From: Chloroflexota bacterium
GTDB taxonomy: Bacteria; Chloroflexota; Dehalococcoidia; CAUJGQ01
Direction of reading: 5' to 3'
Assembly: GCA_963170165.1 (NCBI GenBank)
Contig: CAUJGQ010000138.1
Span: 1-64,000, forward strand
DNA length: 64,000 nt
Shown piece by piece: positions 27,208-37,305 of the stretch; the stretch's first letter is position 1, and every line of letters begins with the position of its first letter. The position numbers and the translations under genes were made by a program. A model generated the notes under the pieces. That model did no database searches. It worked only from the letters and a program-made list of their open reading frames with translations, and was not told the origin of the DNA.

Positions 27208-28230
27208 GTGGACCTGCATCAACTTGAGTACCTACGGGCGGTGGTGCGGGCGGGAAGCGTCACCCGTGCGGCGGAGCAGGCGCACATCTCCCAACCGGCT
27301 ATCAGCAAGCAGATAAGGCTGCTGGAATCGGAATTGGGGACGCCGTTGTTCCACCGGGTCGGGCGGCGGGTGGTACCCACGGAGGCAGGCGCGCTGCTGG
27401 CCGCCTGCGCCGAGCGCATATTCGATGACCTCGCTGCTACCACGGACGCCTTGGCGCAACTCGCCACCGCTGCTCGCGGCACGTTGCGGCTGTGCGCGAC
27501 AGAGACGGTGACGGACAACCTGTTGCCGCTGGCGCTGGCTGACTTGCAGCGGCGCAGCCCCGGCGTCCACGTGACGGTAGAGATGACCGGCACAGATGAC
27601 GCCATCGCGCGGGTACTGGCGGATGACGCCGACTTCGCTCTGGTGGTGTTGCCGCTGGCGGATTCACGCCTGGATATCACACCACTCTTCGAGGAGGCGA
27701 TCCTCCTGGCGGTGCCCTTGGCTCATCCGTGGGCCACCCTCGGGCAGGCGCCACTGGCCGAGGCGCTGGCCGGAGATGCGCTGCTGCTGTCGATGCCCGG
27801 TCATGGGTTACGCGCACAACTGGAGCGGGAGGCACAGGCACGGGGGCTGCGGCTGGACGGACCGGTGGACCTGCGCTCGCAGCGGGCGCTGCTGGAGTTG
27901 GTGGCGCTGGGGGCAGGCATCGCCTTCGCCCCAGCACTGAGCCTGCGGGATTTCGCCGGGCGGGTAGCGGTGCTCATCCCAGAGCCGCCACTCGTGCGAG
28001 CCGTCGGGGTGGTCACCCGCCGCGGCCGGCGCATTTCCCCGGCGGGAGCATTGCTGCTGGAGCTGCTCCGGGCGAAGCTGCCCGAGGTATCGCCCGATCA
28101 CTCCCCTACCGTCTCATTATCTGCCGGCTCGTCATCCTCATCCTCATCGGCGTCCTCCCAGATCTCGGCCAAGCGCAGCTCGAAACCAGGAACGACATCC
28201 TCGCCGGAGAGAATACCGTCCGCACCGTAG
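27208..28230 (+). CDS. LysR-family transcriptional regulator with read-through tail
   Basis: 340 residues from the GTG at 27208; the frame continues to 27124, but that part would cover the operator. Residues 1-60 are the winged helix-turn-helix (LHQLEYLRAVVRAGSVTRAA, SQPAISKQIRLLESELGTPL). Residues ~88-290 are the effector-binding domain (GTLRLCATETVTDNLLPL). The typical family length would end near 28098. Instead the frame runs 44 codons further, antisense through the Uma2 gene, adding a Ser-rich tail (SSSSSSSASS). That tail looks like loss of a stop rather than a functional domain. Ligand unknown; the context suggests branched-chain amino acid control. Confidence 0.88.
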   Translation: MDLHQLEYLRAVVRAGSVTRAAEQAHISQPAISKQIRLLESELGTPLFHRVGRRVVPTEAGALLAACAERIFDDLAATTDALAQLATAARGTLRLCATETVTDNLLPLALADLQRRSPGVHVTVEMTGTDDAIARVLADDADFALVVLPLADSRLDITPLFEEAILLAVPLAHPWATLGQAPLAEALAGDALLLSMPGHGLRAQLEREAQARGLRLDGPVDLRSQRALLELVALGAGIAFAPALSLRDFAGRVAVLIPEPPLVRAVGVVTRRGRRISPAGALLLELLRAKLPEVSPDHSPTVSLSAGSSSSSSSASSQISAKRSSKPGTTSSPERIPSAP

Positions 28231-28727
28231 ACCTCGGTCGAGCCATCGGCGCGATAGACAATTGCCTCGCGGTCGCTCGGATCAAGAACCCAGACGAGTT
28301 GCGCTCCGGCGCGAAGATATTGTTGCACCTTGCGCACCACCTGGGCGAAGCGGTCCGTTGGTGACAGCACTTCAACCACAAGATCGGGCGCGCCGTCCTG
28401 GAACCCACGGGTCAGCTTCCCGCGCTTCAGCCGCTCCTGCCGCGTGAAGGCGACATCAGGGGAGCGGACAAGATCCGGGTTCGTCGCAAGCTTCGCCCCA
28501 TGGTCAGCGCCGCTGACCTTGCCCAGCCTGTGATCACGAACGTACGGTCCTAGACGAATGGCGATATTCATCGCAACCGTGCTTGAGATCCATGAGGCGG
28601 GGCACACTTCCACAAGCCTCCCGTCAATCAACTCGTACCGTTTGCCGCCGTCGGGCATGGCGAGCAGGTCATCGGCGGTCATCAGTGGTTGGAGCGGCGC
28701 GGCGGTCATCTCAGCACCCCATGGCAA
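28098..28727 (-). CDS. Uma2-family restriction endonuclease-like protein (copy 1)
   Basis: 209 residues. It has the PD-(D/E)XK pattern of the Uma2/DUF820 family: YELIDGRLVEVCPAS near the N-terminus, LVRSPDVAFTRQERL, then PDLVVEVLSPTDRFAQVVRKV with the acidic-lysine site and GAQLVWVLDP. The C-terminal ~20 residues are very acidic (EDADEDEDDEPADNE). The family is abundant in Chloroflexota and Cyanobacteria, and its cellular job is poorly known. Its 3' end overlaps the LysR gene on the other strand by 133 bases. Confidence 0.87.
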   Translation of the reverse strand: MPWGAEMTAAPLQPLMTADDLLAMPDGGKRYELIDGRLVEVCPASWISSTVAMNIAIRLGPYVRDHRLGKVSGADHGAKLATNPDLVRSPDVAFTRQERLKRGKLTRGFQDGAPDLVVEVLSPTDRFAQVVRKVQQYLRAGAQLVWVLDPSDREAIVYRADGSTEVYGADGILSGEDVVPGFELRLAEIWEDADEDEDDEPADNETVGE

Positions 28728-31286: not shown

Positions 31287-31333
31287 CGAAGGAGGAGACC
31301 TGGTAACCAGGCGTCACAGCGTCGATGCGTCAT
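31268..31333 (-). CDS. leuA leader peptide (21 codons)
   Basis: ATG at 31333 with AGGTGG three bases upstream; TAA at 31268-31270. The peptide reads MTHRRCDAWLPGLLLRRPSAR as far as the stop (21 residues); the control run is WLPGLLL, encoded TTA and CTC CTC CTT. The ATG overlaps the stop of the upstream Uma2 gene (ATGA), so ribosomes leaving that gene could start here. A short Leu-rich peptide next to a stable hairpin in front of leuA is the classical layout of ribosome-mediated attenuation in high-GC bacteria. There is no experimental proof, but the combination is hard to explain by chance. Confidence 0.8.
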   Translation of the reverse strand: MTHRRCDAWLPGLLLRRPSAR

Positions 31334-32199
31334 TGACCACCTGCCGCTCCACCATTCACATCGCCAAATCGCGCACGGTAACGGGCGAGAAGCGCCTCAA
31401 GTTCTGCGACGCGGCGCCGCTCGGCCTCGGCAGCTAGCTCGGCACCGCCGCGCGCCCGCCGCTCCGCCTCGGCGCGGGTGCGCTCTTGATCAGCGCGGAG
31501 GTTCTCCATGTCAGCGCGGATGCGTTCGGCTTCTGCCCGAGCATGCTCGGCTTCTTCGCGGGTGGGCAGCACGGAGCCATCGACCGTGGCCCAACGCAGC
31601 CATGTCCCACCCCGTGCCTGATAGCTGCCCTCCCAAAGTACGAGCGACAGCCCCAACACGGGACAGGGCAACCGCCCCTCACGGTCACGATCCAGCGGCT
31701 GGTAGAGCCGTTCCTCTGGCGACAGCAGCAACCCCACCAACTCCTGTGACTCCGGGTCATACCAGACGTACTGCGGCACACGCATCAGGTCTTGATAGAT
31801 GCGTCGCTTCTCACCTCGATCCCTGGCGCGGGTGCGAGGTGACAGAATCTGGATCACGACGTCCGGACCCTTGCCCTCTTGCCAGATCACCCAGCTCTTA
31901 CGCTGGCGATCCGGCACATCGAACACGACGTAGACATCTGGTCCGAGGAAGTCGCTATTGCGCACCTGCTCCAGGCTGTAGTAGATGATCTGGTTCTTCC
32001 CGACATAGACGTTCTGGCCGGCGTAGTGCAGCCGAAGCGTCTCAAAGAGCAGATCCATCTGGAGTGCCTGTCGCTCGGTGTCCATCGGCATCCCATCGGT
32101 CTCGGGCAGTTCATCCTCGGTCGGGGGCGCCTCGACACCCAGTTCCGCGAGGAGTGCCCGGTCATCGTCGGTCAGGATCCACTCGCGCTGCTGTGTCAT
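31330..32199 (-). CDS. Uma2-family protein with C-terminal coiled coil (copy 2)
   Basis: 289 residues; GAGGTC precedes the ATG. The Uma2 core occupies about residues 40-200 (IIYYSLEQVRNSDFLGPDVY, KGPDVVIQILSPRTRARDRG, PQYVWYDPESQELVG). After residue ~215 comes a heptad-like charged coiled coil (EEAEHARAEAERIRADMENL and on), a common addition in this family. It probably oligomerises. It is upstream of leuA and shares the ATGA junction with the leuA leader peptide. Confidence 0.87.
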   Translation of the reverse strand: MTQQREWILTDDDRALLAELGVEAPPTEDELPETDGMPMDTERQALQMDLLFETLRLHYAGQNVYVGKNQIIYYSLEQVRNSDFLGPDVYVVFDVPDRQRKSWVIWQEGKGPDVVIQILSPRTRARDRGEKRRIYQDLMRVPQYVWYDPESQELVGLLLSPEERLYQPLDRDREGRLPCPVLGLSLVLWEGSYQARGGTWLRWATVDGSVLPTREEAEHARAEAERIRADMENLRADQERTRAEAERRARGGAELAAEAERRRVAELEALLARYRARFGDVNGGAAGGQ

Positions 32200-32218: not shown

Positions 32219-33736
32219 TTATACCGGCTCCCAGCGACGCTCGGTCACGCCGAAGCGATCAATGCGGATGACCAGCACCCGGCGGCAGCCGTGGGCGCAG
32301 CCGCGCGCCAGCAGGTCGGCCACCTTCAGGTTGGTGGCGGCCGCCTCTGTTGCAGGTTCGGTGGCGTGACAGTGGGCGCCGTACGGTGCAACGACAAACA
32401 CGCCGCTGTCTTCATCCAGCATCACCACCAGGCCGGTCTCGCCATCAGAGTCAAACAACCGCTCGTGGCGGCCATCAGCAAAGCGCACGTCCACATCGCC
32501 GCTGCACACCCAGGACCAGCGTGTATCAAGCGCATGCTCTTGACCGGCAACCAGTGTCTGGTCGGCCGGCGCACCGGGAAAGGCCAGCGACTGCGCGCCG
32601 GCGCCCGGCACGATCCGGACCGCGCGGCGCATTATCCGGTGTGCCTGGCCCTGGCCAATACCCTTGGCGTAGTACAGATAGCCATCGCCCGCGGTGACGG
32701 CATGCCACCCTGACATCGGGCTGAGCAGCGTGGGATAGCCAATGCGTTGAGGCCGCTCGCCTGTACTCAGCAACATGCGCGGCGTTTCCCAACGCACGCC
32801 ATCCTCAGAGGCGGTGTAGTAGATGCCGTCGCGCGATTCGACCGTCGCCAGATAGCGCCCCAACACGGTATTGAAGCTGACACTGGGATTGGCAGCGTAG
32901 ACGGTCGTGGCGCCGGGCGCCGCCCGCGCGATCACGGCGGTGCTCTGCCCCCCAAGACCGGGCTGGCTCCAGGCGCCACGGTAGTACTTCTGCCAGGTGC
33001 CCGGCAGCCCGCCACTGCTTATCCGGGCACGGGCCACATGCACTTCATCGGGCGGTCCGCTGGCCGTGCCCCAGTCCACGTAGTACAGGTAGATATAGTC
33101 GCCCACGACGATGGCGCTGGGCTCGCCGGCGCCAGTGAACTTCGCGCACGGGGGCGCGAGGTTGCGGCCGGTAATGATCGTCCCGCGCCGTTCCCAGGTT
33201 TCACCGAAGTCGCGCGAGTAGGCCATGCCAATGGCAGCCGTGGTGCCACCGCGCGGGCATTGCTGCTCCGCATGGTAGATGCCGTAGAGTTCGCCCTCCC
33301 CCAGTCCCGGCAGCACTGCGCCGAAGCCGGCGTAATCGCGGTCGATACCTTCACCGGTCGGGCCCAGCACCGGCACCGCACCGCCGCGCGCATCCGTGCG
33401 GTGGGGCCGCAGGCTGTCGAAGCTAGCGCCACGCAGCAGGTACGCGTGCGTGCCGCCGGTAACCCACACGTGATACTGGCCGTTTGCGCTCAGGAAGGAG
33501 ATGTGGCCATCAGGAAGCGAGCGCATCCCAAATTCGCCACCGGGCAACCCGTCCTCTTCCGGACCAGACAGGGCCAGCGAGTAGCTGTAGGTTTCGGCCG
33601 CGGTGGCCGGCGCCGCGGGAGGCAGGCCGTCGCGCTGCGCGGTTCCCAGCACGGCGCCACCGATGATCAGCAGGGCGCCCAGCAGCCACACCGGCCAGCG
33701 CCGGAGGATCGCGCCGCGTACTCCATCAGCCGCCAT
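32219..33736 (-). CDS. Membrane-anchored protein with beta-propeller-like domain
   Basis: About 505 residues from the ATG at 33736; an ATG at 33748 and a longer frame to 33898 are alternatives. A signal anchor (WPVWLLGALLIIGGAVLG) is followed by a long exterior domain with repeated motifs of five-bladed glycosidase/sialidase-like propellers: YSRDFGETWERRGTII, YIYLYYVDWGTASGPPDEVH, VSFNTVLGRYLATVES and GIYYTASEDGVRWETP. This pattern is seen in GH43/GH33-like proteins, but I cannot place the catalytic acids with confidence. The C-terminal ~100 residues hold four cysteines. It lies between ilvN and leuA, where many bacteria have ilvC. Confidence 0.65.
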   Translation of the reverse strand: MAADGVRGAILRRWPVWLLGALLIIGGAVLGTAQRDGLPPAAPATAAETYSYSLALSGPEEDGLPGGEFGMRSLPDGHISFLSANGQYHVWVTGGTHAYLLRGASFDSLRPHRTDARGGAVPVLGPTGEGIDRDYAGFGAVLPGLGEGELYGIYHAEQQCPRGGTTAAIGMAYSRDFGETWERRGTIITGRNLAPPCAKFTGAGEPSAIVVGDYIYLYYVDWGTASGPPDEVHVARARISSGGLPGTWQKYYRGAWSQPGLGGQSTAVIARAAPGATTVYAANPSVSFNTVLGRYLATVESRDGIYYTASEDGVRWETPRMLLSTGERPQRIGYPTLLSPMSGWHAVTAGDGYLYYAKGIGQGQAHRIMRRAVRIVPGAGAQSLAFPGAPADQTLVAGQEHALDTRWSWVCSGDVDVRFADGRHERLFDSDGETGLVVMLDEDSGVFVVAPYGAHCHATEPATEAAATNLKVADLLARGCAHGCRRVLVIRIDRFGVTERRWEPV

Positions 33737-33819
33737 GAACCGCCCCATCCTCGCCGGCTTCGGTGCCTGCTGGCTGGCCCGCCTCTGGGCCAGTGTAGCG
33801 CGCGGTGTCCGGCCGGCCG

Positions 33820-34173
33820 CTATCGCCGTCTGCTCGGCCGCAGCGGTTCCACCAGTCCAAAGGCGCCCAGCACCAGCAGCAGCGCCCCTGGCATCCACAA
33901 CAAGCCGGTGCCATCGGCCGACAGCACCGCGGCCAATCCCATCAACAGTCCGGCGGCAGCCACAACCAGCGTCCCGCCCTGACGTGGCTCAGCATCATAG
34001 CGGCGCAGCCCGAGCATAGCCAGCACCGGCGGCGCCATGGTCAGCGCCACCAGCCGCCACTCGGATTGCTCCAGCGCCCCCGCCTGCTTAGCTGCCGTTA
34101 CCCCCAGCGTGGCCAGCGTCCCCAGCGCCGCACCAATGGCGGTATACAGCCGTGCCCGTGTCTCGGAAGCCAT
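33820..34173 (-). CDS. Small multi-pass membrane protein
   Basis: 117 residues from the ATG at 34173; the frame continues upstream through an inverted repeat to 34287, which is unlikely to be translated. Three to four hydrophobic helices: YTAIGAALGTLATLGVTAA, LVALTMAPPVLAMLGL, TLVVAAAGLLMGLAAVL and LLWMPGALLLVLGAFGLV, ending RPSRRR. No recognised family. It shares the strand with ilvN and the propeller gene, and may be part of the same transcript. Confidence 0.6.
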   Translation of the reverse strand: MASETRARLYTAIGAALGTLATLGVTAAKQAGALEQSEWRLVALTMAPPVLAMLGLRRYDAEPRQGGTLVVAAAGLLMGLAAVLSADGTGLLWMPGALLLVLGAFGLVEPLRPSRRR

Positions 34174-34218
34174 ATGTGAGCCTGTCAGCCTGCCGGCGGG
34201 GAGCCGGAACGGAGCAGT

Positions 34219-34276
34219 GTGTTTCGTATTGCGCGCGGGGATTGAAGCTACGAGTTCCACACGCAATACGAAACAC
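34219..34276. repeat. Perfect 15-bp inverted repeat between ilvN and a membrane gene
   Basis: GTGTTTCGTATTGCG (34219-34233) and CGCAATACGAAACAC (34262-34276) flank 28 bases. There is no T run. It lies just after ilvN on the minus strand and may terminate or process the ilvBN transcript. Its ATTGCG core is shared with the inverted repeat at 3372-3412. Confidence 0.7.
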
Positions 34277-34304
34277 GTTCGCCCCAAGATGCTGGTTGCC
34301 GCTG

Positions 34305-34886
34305 CTAATCGCTCACATACGGCATCGCGCCATTCGGGCGGTGACCGATGCGGGCATGGGCGGCGGCGGCGGCGGCGGCTTTGGCGTCGTCCACGTGCAC
34401 GGTGCTCGCGCCGCGGCCCATCGCCAGCCGGCCGGTGCGGGCCAGTTCGGCGATACCGAACGGCTTCATCGTGCGCAGCACGTTGTCGATGTGATCACCA
34501 TCACCCACTACCTCCAGGATGACGGACGAGTCCGACACATCGGCCACGTGTGCACCGAACACCCCCGCAAGCTGGATCACCTCACCGCGCTTGCCATTGG
34601 AACAGCGCACCTTGATCAGCGCCAGCTCGCGCGCCACCATCCCCTTGTGGGTGATGTCCGCCACCTTGACCACGTCGATCAGCTTGTAGAGCTGCTTTTC
34701 GACCTGTTCCACCTGGGTGGTCGAGCCATCCACTACGATGGTCATGCGCGACAGGCCGTCCTGTTCGGTCTGGCCGACGGCCAGACTCTCGATGTTGAAG
34801 CCACGCCGCCGGAACAGCGAGGCCACCCGGTTCAGCACGCCCGGCCGGTCCTCGACCAGGGCGATGACGGTATGCTTGTTGCTCAT
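34305..34886 (-). CDS. ilvN: Acetolactate synthase small (regulatory) subunit
   Basis: 193 residues; GAGGAG precedes the ATG. The N-terminal ACT domain (HTVIALVEDRPGVLNRVASL, RRGFNIESLAVGQTE) binds valine and confers feedback inhibition on the catalytic subunit. The C-terminal ALS_ss_C domain follows (LALIKVRCSNGKRGEVIQLA, FGIAELARTGRLAMGRG). Length is a little above the usual ~165, with an Ala-rich end. It follows ilvB by 71 bases in the same transcript. Confidence 0.94.
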   Translation of the reverse strand: MSNKHTVIALVEDRPGVLNRVASLFRRRGFNIESLAVGQTEQDGLSRMTIVVDGSTTQVEQVEKQLYKLIDVVKVADITHKGMVARELALIKVRCSNGKRGEVIQLAGVFGAHVADVSDSSVILEVVGDGDHIDNVLRTMKPFGIAELARTGRLAMGRGASTVHVDDAKAAAAAAAHARIGHRPNGAMPYVSD

Positions 34887-34957: not shown

Positions 34958-36688
34958 CTAGCTGACGAGCTGGCCCGTCTTCTTGCGTGCTTCCACCAAC
35001 GTCGGGTCCTCGATGGTCTCGGCCAGGGAGGCGCCGGCGGGCACCATCGGCCAGACGTTCTCCTCGGTCATCACCCGGAAATCGAGCAACACCGGACCGG
35101 GGTAGGCGTTCGCCTCCTCGATGGCGGCGCGCACCTTCTGCTTCTCAGTGACACGGATCGCCTTGATGCCATACGCATCCGCCAGCTTGACGAAGTCCGG
35201 CTGGCAGACGGTGGTCCGCAGGTCGTTGTCAACGTGGTTCTCGTTGTAGAACAGCTGCTGCCACTGGCGGATCATGCCCAGCACGCCGTTGTTGAGGATC
35301 GCCATCTTCACCGGCGCGCGCATATCGACGATGGTGGCCAGTTCCTGGATGTTCATCTGGAAGCCGCCGTCACCGCAGATGCTCCACACCAGCTCGCCGG
35401 GTCGGGCCATCTGCGCCCCCAGCGCCGCCGGCACCTCGAAGCCCATCGTGCCCAGGCCACCGGAGGTGATCAGCGTGCGCGGCCGGCGGAACACCCACTG
35501 CTGGCCGGTCCACATCTGATGCTGGCCTACGCCGGTGACAACCACCGCTTCACCACCGCACGCCTCGTAGATCTCCCGCACCACGTACTGCGAGGAGATA
35601 TCCTGGCCCTTGGTCTCGGGCAGGGTGAAGGAGGGATGCTCGCGGCGCAGGTCGTCGATCCATTGCAGCCATTCCAGGTGGGTGTTCTGCTTGACGATGG
35701 GAATCAGCTGTTCCAGCACCTGGCGGGCGTCGCCGACGATCGGCACCTCGGTCTTGATATTCTTGCCGATCTCCGCCGGGTCGATGTCAATGTGAATCAC
35801 GCGAGCGGTGGGGTTGAAGTCGGAGAAGCGGCCCATCGCTCGGTCGTCAAAGCGCATCCCGATGCCAATGACGACGTCAGCGTTGTTGGCAGCGTGGTTG
35901 CAGTGGTAGGCGCCGTGCATCCCCATCCAGCCGATGTTGAGGATGTGGTCGCCCGGCATGGCGCCGATGCCGAGGAAGGTGCTCATCACCGGGATCTGCG
36001 CCTTCTCCGCCAGCGCCTTGAGCTCGGCCGAAGCGCCGGACCAGATGATGCCGTGGCCGGCCAGGATCACGGGCCGCTTCGCCTCGTCAATGAGGCGGGC
36101 AGCACGTTTGACCTGCCCCATGTGTCCCTGGGTGGTGGGCTTGTAGGAGCGGATGCTGATCTCCTCCGGCCACTCAAACTCAGCAAACTCCTGGAATACA
36201 TCCTTGGGAATGTCAACATGCACGGGGCCGGGCCGGCCGCTGGCGGCGATGTAGAACGCCTCGCGGATGACGGTGGCAATCTCGCTCGCCTTCATCACCA
36301 GATAGTTATGCTTGACGATCGGCAGGGTGATACCAGTGATGTCCGCCTCTTGAAAGCCGTCGCGGCCCAGCAGGTTGCGAGAGACGTTGCCGGTCAGCAC
36401 CACCATCGGCACCGAGTCCATCATGGCCGTACAGATGCCGGTGACGAGATTGGTGGCGCCGGGTCCGGAGGTACCCAGGCAGACGCCGACCTTTCCGGAG
36501 GCGCGGGCGTAGCCGTCGGCCATGTGCGCGCCGCCTTGCTCGTGCCGCACCAGCACATGCTTGAGCTGCGGGAACTTGGGGAACTCGTCGTACAGAGGCA
36601 GCACCACGCCGCCCGGGTAACCGTAGATCACCTCCACGCCCTCACGGACGAGGCTTTCCAGCAGGATCTGTGCGCCATTCATTCGCAT
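34958..36688 (-). CDS. ilvB: Acetolactate synthase large (catalytic) subunit
   Basis: 576 residues from the ATG at 36688, placed 10 bases after GGAGAG; another ATG at 36706 lacks a site. It is a ThDP enzyme that joins two pyruvates (or pyruvate and 2-oxobutyrate) in valine, leucine and isoleucine synthesis. Marks: YGYPGGVVLPLYDEF, the ThDP-activating Glu in RHEQGGAHMADGYARASG, GRPGPVHVDIPKDV, and the Mg/ThDP motif GDGGFQMNIQELATI. Complete. It heads the operon and is preceded by a T-box and a second leader-peptide attenuator. Confidence 0.96.
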   Translation of the reverse strand: MRMNGAQILLESLVREGVEVIYGYPGGVVLPLYDEFPKFPQLKHVLVRHEQGGAHMADGYARASGKVGVCLGTSGPGATNLVTGICTAMMDSVPMVVLTGNVSRNLLGRDGFQEADITGITLPIVKHNYLVMKASEIATVIREAFYIAASGRPGPVHVDIPKDVFQEFAEFEWPEEISIRSYKPTTQGHMGQVKRAARLIDEAKRPVILAGHGIIWSGASAELKALAEKAQIPVMSTFLGIGAMPGDHILNIGWMGMHGAYHCNHAANNADVVIGIGMRFDDRAMGRFSDFNPTARVIHIDIDPAEIGKNIKTEVPIVGDARQVLEQLIPIVKQNTHLEWLQWIDDLRREHPSFTLPETKGQDISSQYVVREIYEACGGEAVVVTGVGQHQMWTGQQWVFRRPRTLITSGGLGTMGFEVPAALGAQMARPGELVWSICGDGGFQMNIQELATIVDMRAPVKMAILNNGVLGMIRQWQQLFYNENHVDNDLRTTVCQPDFVKLADAYGIKAIRVTEKQKVRAAIEEANAYPGPVLLDFRVMTEENVWPMVPAGASLAETIEDPTLVEARKKTGQLVS

Positions 36689-36840
36689 TGCGGGTCTGCT
36701 CTCCATTGATCAGGATGGGCGTCTCACCGTTGGCTCCGCCACGCTCCCGCTACCATGCCGCCCCGTGACTGCGGGGCGGGCGTCCTTCCTCGTCCGTCTG
36801 AACACATGCTGGTTGATCCTCGTCCGGCCGGCGCACACAA

Positions 36841-36876
36841 GAGCGGCGGCCGGTTTGCTGTCCCTGGCCGCCGCTC
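36841..36876 (-). terminator. Second ilvB attenuator hairpin
   Basis: In RNA order, GAGCGGCGGCC and GGCCGCCGCTC form a perfect 11-bp stem with a 14-base loop, followed by TTGTGTG, 26 bases after the leader-peptide stop. Its 5' arm (GAGCGG) can also pair with CCGCTC inside the leader's Leu/Val codons, giving a possible alternative fold. A further 8-bp hairpin at 36758-36779 lies nearer ilvB. Confidence 0.65.
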
Positions 36877-36902
36877 CGGTTACACGTCAGATGGAGCCAC
36901 GG

Positions 36903-37004
36903 TCAGGGGCCGAGAAGTAGTACGACGAGCGCTACGAGCGGTAGCGCGGCACGCACGGTCACGCGCGGAGCCGGATTGTGTGCCATCACCCGTGTCAGCG
37001 CCAT
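36903..37004 (-). CDS. ilvB leader peptide (33 codons, Leu/Val run)
   Basis: ATG at 37004 (CAGGGGGCAG upstream), TGA at 36903-36905. It starts 25 bases after the T-box terminator T run and ends LPLVALVVLLLGP. This part uses CTA, CTC, CTC, CTA, CTT, CTC for Leu and GTA, GTC, GTA for Val, with no Ile; CTA, CTT and GTA are uncommon elsewhere in this GC-rich window. The Leu/Val-rich end and the stable hairpin after the stop are what one expects from a translation-coupled attenuator for an ilvBN operon. A hairpin (GCGCTAC/GTAGCGC, 36929-36947) lies within the control codons. Confidence 0.8.
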   Translation of the reverse strand: MALTRVMAHNPAPRVTVRAALPLVALVVLLLGP

Positions 37005-37028: not shown

Positions 37029-37268
37029 AAAAAAGCCCGTCCCCGGCAAGGGACGGGACATGCCCGCGGTACCACCCTCGTTCCTCTCGCGTGGAGAGGC
37101 ACTTTCACGCGCGCTAACGGGCGCAACCCGGAGCCGGGTACTGCTACTTCCCCGGTTCGGCTCAGGAGCGAGTTCCGGCCTGCGCCGCCGCCGGGCTTGC
37201 ACCATTCCCGGCTCGCTGGTGCGGAAGAGGGCCGTACTACTCTCCGTCACAGCCGCTGCTATTACTAG
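37029..37268 (-). ncRNA. T-box leader, Leu (CUC) specifier, upstream of ilvB
   Basis: The T-box sequence AGGGTGGTACCGCGG is at 37078-37064. It is followed by the terminator CCCGTCCC/GGGACGGG and TTTTTT (37057-37029), whose 5' side overlaps the region used for the antiterminator. Stem I is bounded by CGGCT (37255-37251) and AGCCG (37162-37158) and includes the typical GAGCCGGGAATGGTGCAAGCC apex element, given here only in part as GAGCCGGGAATGG. Aligned to B. subtilis glyQS (GAAA-GGC then UUCUUGAGC), the specifier falls on CTC at 37172-37170, a leucine codon. Uncharged tRNA-Leu should permit read-through into ilvB. Confidence 0.92.
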
Positions 37269-37275
37269 CTTCCGT

Positions 37276-37305
37276 ACCGTACGCAATCACTCCGCAACGT
37301 GTCAA
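37276..37305 (-). promoter_or_regulatory. Promoter of the ilvB T-box transcript
   Basis: TTGACA (37305-37300) and TACGGT (37281-37276), 18-base spacer, on the minus strand. The predicted start, near 37268, is about 13 bases before T-box stem I, which is the expected geometry. Confidence 0.75.

Follow-up and report, generated by a model that had tools for sequence, protein, structure and literature searches.

The window analysed here, a stretch of 64,000 nucleotides from a Chloroflexota bacterium, carries on its minus strand several genes for the synthesis of branched-chain amino acids (BCAAs): ilvB and ilvN and, further downstream, leuA and leuC. The first two genes are:

34958-36706, minus strand: ilvB, acetolactate synthase large subunit (TIGR00118, 759 bits)
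34305-34886, minus strand: ilvN, acetolactate synthase small subunit (TIGR00119/NF008864)

The longest ilvB reading frame starts at 36706 (window 36706-36680, MRMNGAQ...), and its annotated start is probably too early, because relatives begin at the methionine that is residue 7 here (internal ATGCGAATG). Between ilvN, leuA and leuC lie unrelated-looking minus-strand reading frames (28098-28727, 31330-32199, 32219-33898 and 33820-34287), two of which resemble Uma2/DUF820 by eye, so that the BCAA genes are interrupted on the same strand. Upstream of ilvB is a long 5' leader, in which a T-box is followed by a short reading frame rich in Leu and Val codons and by alternative predicted hairpins.

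The T-box leader in front of ilvB

The T-box part of the leader is made up of the following features, given in the direction of transcription:

37276-37305, minus strand: promoter-like site TTGACA-N18-TACGGT, read from the sequence (TTGACA 37305-37300, 18-nt spacer, TACGGT 37281-37276)
37046-37259, minus strand: T-box leader (RF00230) with stem I, specifier loop and antiterminator; full-length covariance model match, 102.4 bits
37214-37202, minus strand: stem I apex GAGCCGGGAATGG, read from the sequence
37170-37172, minus strand: specifier codon CUC (Leu) in the context GGAA-CTC-G; GGAA-CUC falls on the specifier loop in the covariance model alignment
37064-37078, minus strand: T-box sequence AGGGTGGTACCGCGG, with UGGU within the T-box AGGGUGGUACCGCGG as the predicted partner of the ACCA of tRNA-Leu
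37029-37057, minus strand: T-box intrinsic terminator, 9 bp, C and then six T, listed by the terminator scan

A preliminary description of this region had claimed that all elements of a T-box leader are present and correctly ordered, and on the minus strand each was indeed found in the stated order. The Infernal search that it had proposed as a check matched RF00230 on the minus strand at 37259-37046 over the full model length (1-219), scoring 102.4 bits, above the gathering cut-off of 93, with an E value of 1.8e-21, and this is the sole Rfam match within the 64-kb window. The covariance model places CUC opposite the specifier position, in agreement with the CTC at 37172-37170 named earlier, and the terminator with six T was likewise recovered: its stem (CCCGTCCC...GGGACGGG, 37057-37036) is followed by CTTTTTT (T run 37034-37029) in the layout CCCGTCCC-TTGCC-GGGGACGGG-CTTTTTT, and its 5' arm CCCGTCCC is common to terminator and antiterminator. 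The promoter held up in part. The site is present and its -35 hexamer is perfect, but the -10 hexamer is weak (3/6), which is why a strict sigma-70 scan of the region, in which nothing was listed, omits it.

The genome's tRNA-Leu gene with anticodon GAG has the acceptor end ...CCTCGGC-A, and since its discriminator is A, the ACCA end of this tRNA would pair with the UGGU of the T-box. At least 26 of 30 ilvB T-boxes of relatives in the class keep the CUC specifier. The same genome holds four other T-boxes besides that of ilvB, and for two of them specifiers are given: CUC for leuS (L207 1737-1503, minus strand) and AUC for ileS (L208 2591-2335, minus strand). That the ilvB T-box is genuine and Leu-specific is well supported, tRNA-Leu sensing being predicted from the sequence, and by itself such a T-box is ordinary. 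The earlier statement that tRNA-Leu, and not tRNA-Val or tRNA-Ile, is what the operon senses therefore stands for the T-box, on the strength of the covariance model alignment, the conserved CUC, the discriminator base of tRNA-Leu(GAG) and the CUC of leuS, but for the operon as a whole it is incomplete, as a Leu/Val-codon-rich leader peptide downstream very probably adds a second check, on both Leu and Val. Nor is the T-box the 'complete leader' that it had been called: the RNA extends for approximately 320 nt beyond the terminator before ilvB is reached, and a second element lies inside this stretch.

A putative leader-peptide frame and alternative hairpins

The approximately 320 nt between the T-box terminator and ilvB contain a Shine-Dalgarno sequence and a 33-codon reading frame that ends in ALPLVALVVLLLGP directly before its stop codon, and further segments that can pair in alternative ways:

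36903-37004, minus strand: leader peptide reading frame, MALTRVMAHNPAPRVTVRAALPLVALVVLLLGP and stop; Shine-Dalgarno AGGGGG 7 nt upstream of the ATG (37004)
36893-36909, minus strand: segment 2, CCCCTGACCGTGGCTCC, overlapping the leader stop codon
36862-36877, minus strand: segment 3, GGAGCGGCGGCCAGGG, pairing with segment 2 (antiterminator) or with segment 4
36841-36851, minus strand: segment 4, GGCCGCCGCTC, completing the 3:4 hairpin, then UUGUGUG (36840-36834)
36758-36779, minus strand: hairpin B, CCGCCCCG-CAGTCA-CGGGGCGG, also present in a genome of the same family (G001) with a C-G to U-A change

Near the C-terminal end of the encoded peptide, Leu, Val or Ile (here Leu or Val) occupy seven of eight consecutive positions, a tail that none of 5000 dinucleotide shuffles of the region reached. 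It is also unique in the window, as among 1192 overlapping stretches on both strands the only two matches are this same reading frame. Rare codons are frequent in it: CTA or CTT encode three of its seven Leu residues, compared with 8.7% in 13 genes of the window (P 0.018), and GTA encodes two of its six Val residues, compared with 5.3% in the same genes (P 0.036). Ile codons are nearly absent from the leader reading frames, so Ile sensing is not accounted for. A strict scan found no promoter between the T-box and the reading frame, and an Rfam search for a second element downstream of the T-box found no family. Comparisons of close pairs of leader reading frames gave no synonymous excess (dN/dS of approximately 1 or above in most pairs) and no frame breaks; the lack of synonymous excess would fit a peptide in which only the control codons matter, and is not proof of translation. 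We regard this second stage with good confidence as a translated, regulatory leader; together with the attenuator-like hairpins, it very probably provides a further test of Leu and Val supply that is made through the ribosome.

Directly after the leader stop codon, two mutually exclusive hairpins are predicted, in a layout like that of a classical ribosome-mediated attenuator. Their predicted energies are -27.2 kcal/mol for 2:3 and -29.1 kcal/mol for 3:4, and in 3000 shuffles of the same 79 nt the stability of 3:4 was never matched, that of 2:3 was matched 50 times, and that of both together never. In constrained folds, 3:4 forms when a ribosome is placed at the UGA, and 2:3 forms when it is stalled early in the Leu/Val run, whereas once the ribosome sits on the run's last CUA, the minimum free energy already favours 3:4, and the model therefore needs earlier stalling or co-transcriptional kinetics. 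Without translation, the minimum free energy favours 2:3, that is, read-through. All of these energies are predictions for naked RNA, and the ribosome masks are crude; the folding z-score of the whole untranslated region is unremarkable.

How the second stage would switch expression off is suggested less clearly by the sequence. The UUGUGUG after 3:4 is a poor U-tract rather than a U-run, and the hairpin is absent from the output of a standard terminator scan. The stop-codon hairpin of families f2 and f66 has no clear overlap with the one that follows, so the classical exclusion of 2:3 and 3:4 is not found in every relative. The second element is described here as one that would work like an attenuator and is not classed as a canonical intrinsic-terminator attenuator. 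We lean towards transcription termination at 3:4, a preference kept modest by the poor U-tract and by the lack of a clear overlap between the first and the following hairpin of f2 and f66.

An alternative, which we regard as possible but rather unlikely, is a tandem sensor whose second stage acts on translation, as in Bacillus subtilis rtpA, or on Rho access, where the stalled ribosome would change the RNA in a way that permits translation of ilvB or denies access to Rho. The rtpA precedent speaks for it, as do the poor U-tract, the approximately 190 nt from the leader stop codon to ilvB in the window, and hairpin B, which in f1 and f66 is not followed by a U-run; against it, no conserved stable hairpin that sequesters the ilvB Shine-Dalgarno sequence was noticed in the predicted folds, and B in several f2 genomes resembles an intrinsic terminator with UUUU. 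Shine-Dalgarno sequestration was considered as a general mechanism and dropped, because in f66 a pairing between the first hairpin arm and the Shine-Dalgarno sequence of ilvB is possible in G157, whereas inspection by eye gave none for G248 and G190. Hairpin B is common to the two f1 genomes (window 36779-36758; L007, ahead of ilvB) in the form CCGYCCCG-CNGTCA-CGGGRCGG, with a compensatory change, and a GGTAGC-like tail follows it.

Tandem and single modules among relatives

Regions upstream of ilvB were compared in 119 genomes; an IlvB scan of named genomes returned only distant Chloroflexota (Anaerolineales and other Chloroflexi) and Phycisphaerae relatives, whose loci (L065-L081) lie outside this comparison. 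The class is probably Dehalococcoidia, to judge from small complete genomes that belong to family f14. The order T-box, Leu/Val leader peptide, hairpin, ilvB is found in 15 genomes from six families of the class. It is clear, with a hairpin at the leader stop codon, in nine of these: the window genome (G000) and G001 (f1), G023 (f23), G051 and G084 (f17), and G136, G157, G190 and G211 (f66). In the other six (G017, G147, G179 and G239 of f17, G069 of f50 and G168 of f60), the Leu runs are shorter or interrupted; these genomes miss a strict 6-of-8 criterion and are counted by aligned position and motif, G168 being the weakest. One further candidate, G036, in which a T-box is followed by a 213-nt gap, was not counted, as the reading frame there has no Leu/Val run. 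The distance from T-box to ilvB is approximately 280-410 nt in most tandems, compared with approximately 40-130 nt in families with a T-box only (f4, f30, f37 and f49).

The leader also occurs without a T-box, in 24 of 27 f2 genomes compared with 0 of 26 genomes of f33, a family with neither T-box nor leader peptide (Fisher P 4e-12); families were grouped as leader-bearing after inspection, and this comparison of f2 with f33 is the cleaner test. In f66, the leader of G248 has no T-box and is immediately preceded by a promoter-like site, whereas in four relatives the T-box lies in between, which indicates that the modules come apart. In f2, the hairpin that starts at the leader stop codon covaries: 94.3% of cells are paired compared with 87.5% in shuffles, there are 18 double-change cells compared with 5.1, and none of 500 shuffles reaches the pairing or the double-change value, while sliding the hairpin lowers the pairing to 35-58%.

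The f2 loci (L012, L013, L105 and L107-L127) can be viewed as leader-only ilvB attenuators, in which the nearly invariant ending CTCGTACTT-nnn-TAG (CTC GTA CTT xxx TAG in most genomes, with conserved control-codon positions) precedes the covarying hairpin. Several f2 genomes also have a GCCCGCGTGTCGGGC hairpin with a U-rich tail, and an Rfam scan of three f2 leaders (L012, L119 and L121) reported no family. Ahead of the Leu run, the leader reading frames of f17, f50, f60 and f66 have in common a loosely conserved motif in the middle, LEVxPxS ... R-x-RVV (L138, L139, L142, L149, L151, L153, L161, L163, L164 and L167). These leaders also contain an internal GGAGGT, to which those of f66 add an internal hairpin. 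The motif could be the sign of a pause site or of a common leader of older origin.

These comparisons bear on two readings in which the frame is no regulator. The first holds that the T-box alone regulates, the downstream reading frame being a chance frame in a GC-rich untranslated region and the hairpins incidental. Such a chance frame would explain why the leaders have no synonymous excess, and the many relatives with a T-box directly before ilvB and no leader (f4, f30, f37 and f49) are in line with it, but we consider it improbable: the tail is absent from all shuffles and from every other stretch of the window, it recurs in the nine clear tandems and separates f2 from f33, and in f2 a covarying hairpin sits exactly at the leader stop codon. 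That the frame instead encodes a small functional membrane peptide, as its hydrophobic C-terminal tail and the loosely conserved middle motif in f17, f50, f60 and f66 might suggest, is very improbable, since the tail is almost purely Leu and Val and no mixed transmembrane segment, the length (22-65 aa) and the N-terminus vary widely, and the leader is always found just upstream of ilvB.

A proposed two-stage switch and known systems

Taken with a translated, regulatory leader, the ilvB 5' leader is likely to be a two-stage starvation switch, consisting of a T-box and then a leader-peptide attenuator. In the proposed model, uncharged tRNA-Leu(GAG) would read the CUC specifier in the first stage, and its ACCA end would hold the antiterminator, so that the polymerase passes the first terminator. 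On the read-through RNA, a ribosome would start at 37004 and translate the stretch of Leu and Val codons, which includes several rare ones (CUA, CUU and GUA). The direction of control that we infer is that a shortage of Leu or Val would stall the ribosome before the end of the run, where segment 2 would pair with segment 3 and 3:4 could not form, whereas with plentiful charged tRNA the ribosome would reach the UGA and cover segment 2, 3:4 would form and expression would stop. The two elements together would be an AND gate for high ilvBN expression, with both signals needed. Such a tandem would explain how a Leu-only T-box serves an operon that also makes Val precursors.

Across the class, we think it probable that this is an undescribed two-stage ilvB leader of wide distribution, in which a tRNA-Leu T-box is joined to a homologous Leu/Val leader-peptide attenuator, with modules gained and lost independently (both, T-box only, leader only, or neither) and a second stage that uses a non-canonical terminator or another off-switch. 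A T-box reads tRNA charging by direct binding of the tRNA and a leader peptide reads it through the ribosome, and sister families with one, both or neither module offer a way of testing what a cell would gain from measuring one starvation by two routes.

Our literature search, which lay mostly outside subscription papers, found none that combines a T-box with a leader peptide upstream of ilvB, and the known systems each share a part of the arrangement. In the B. subtilis ilv-leu operon, a Leu-responsive T-box (RF00230) with a terminator/antiterminator switch precedes ilvB (PMC5794164, PMC12452182), as in the window; there the T-box is the sole RNA sensor, with CodY adding Ile/Val control, whereas here a leader peptide follows it. 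BCAA operons of Bacillota can also have tandem T-box/T-box or T-box/guanidine leaders (PMC12452182), which likewise set two RNA sensors one after the other ahead of ilv genes, but both members of each pair are riboswitch-type aptamers and no leader peptide is involved. Conversely, in actinobacteria a short reading frame with runs of Leu, Val and Ile codons and hairpins precedes ilvB (BMC Microbiol 2005, PMC1262725) in the absence of a T-box, T-boxes being reported there only before ileS (PMC1262725), and in Staphylococcus aureus a Leu-rich attenuator peptide precedes the BCAA operon at ilvD, where the authors sought a T-box and found none (PMC5794164).

The closest parallel is B. subtilis rtpA (anti-TRAP), where, as summarised in PMC11255114 from Chen and Yanofsky 2003 and 2004, uncharged tRNA-Trp is sensed by a tandem of T-box and leader peptide, of which the latter operates at the level of translation. 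As in the window and its eight clear relatives, a T-box is followed on one RNA by a leader reading frame for the same amino acid. The rtpA leader frame reportedly senses that amino acid through ribosome stalling, and to our knowledge rtpA is the only precedent of a T-box and a leader peptide in series. The two systems differ in what they sense and control: in rtpA, the signal is Trp, the gene encodes an anti-repressor and the leader acts on translation, whereas the leader described here, in another phylum, would respond to Leu and Val and control a biosynthetic operon, probably by transcription attenuation.
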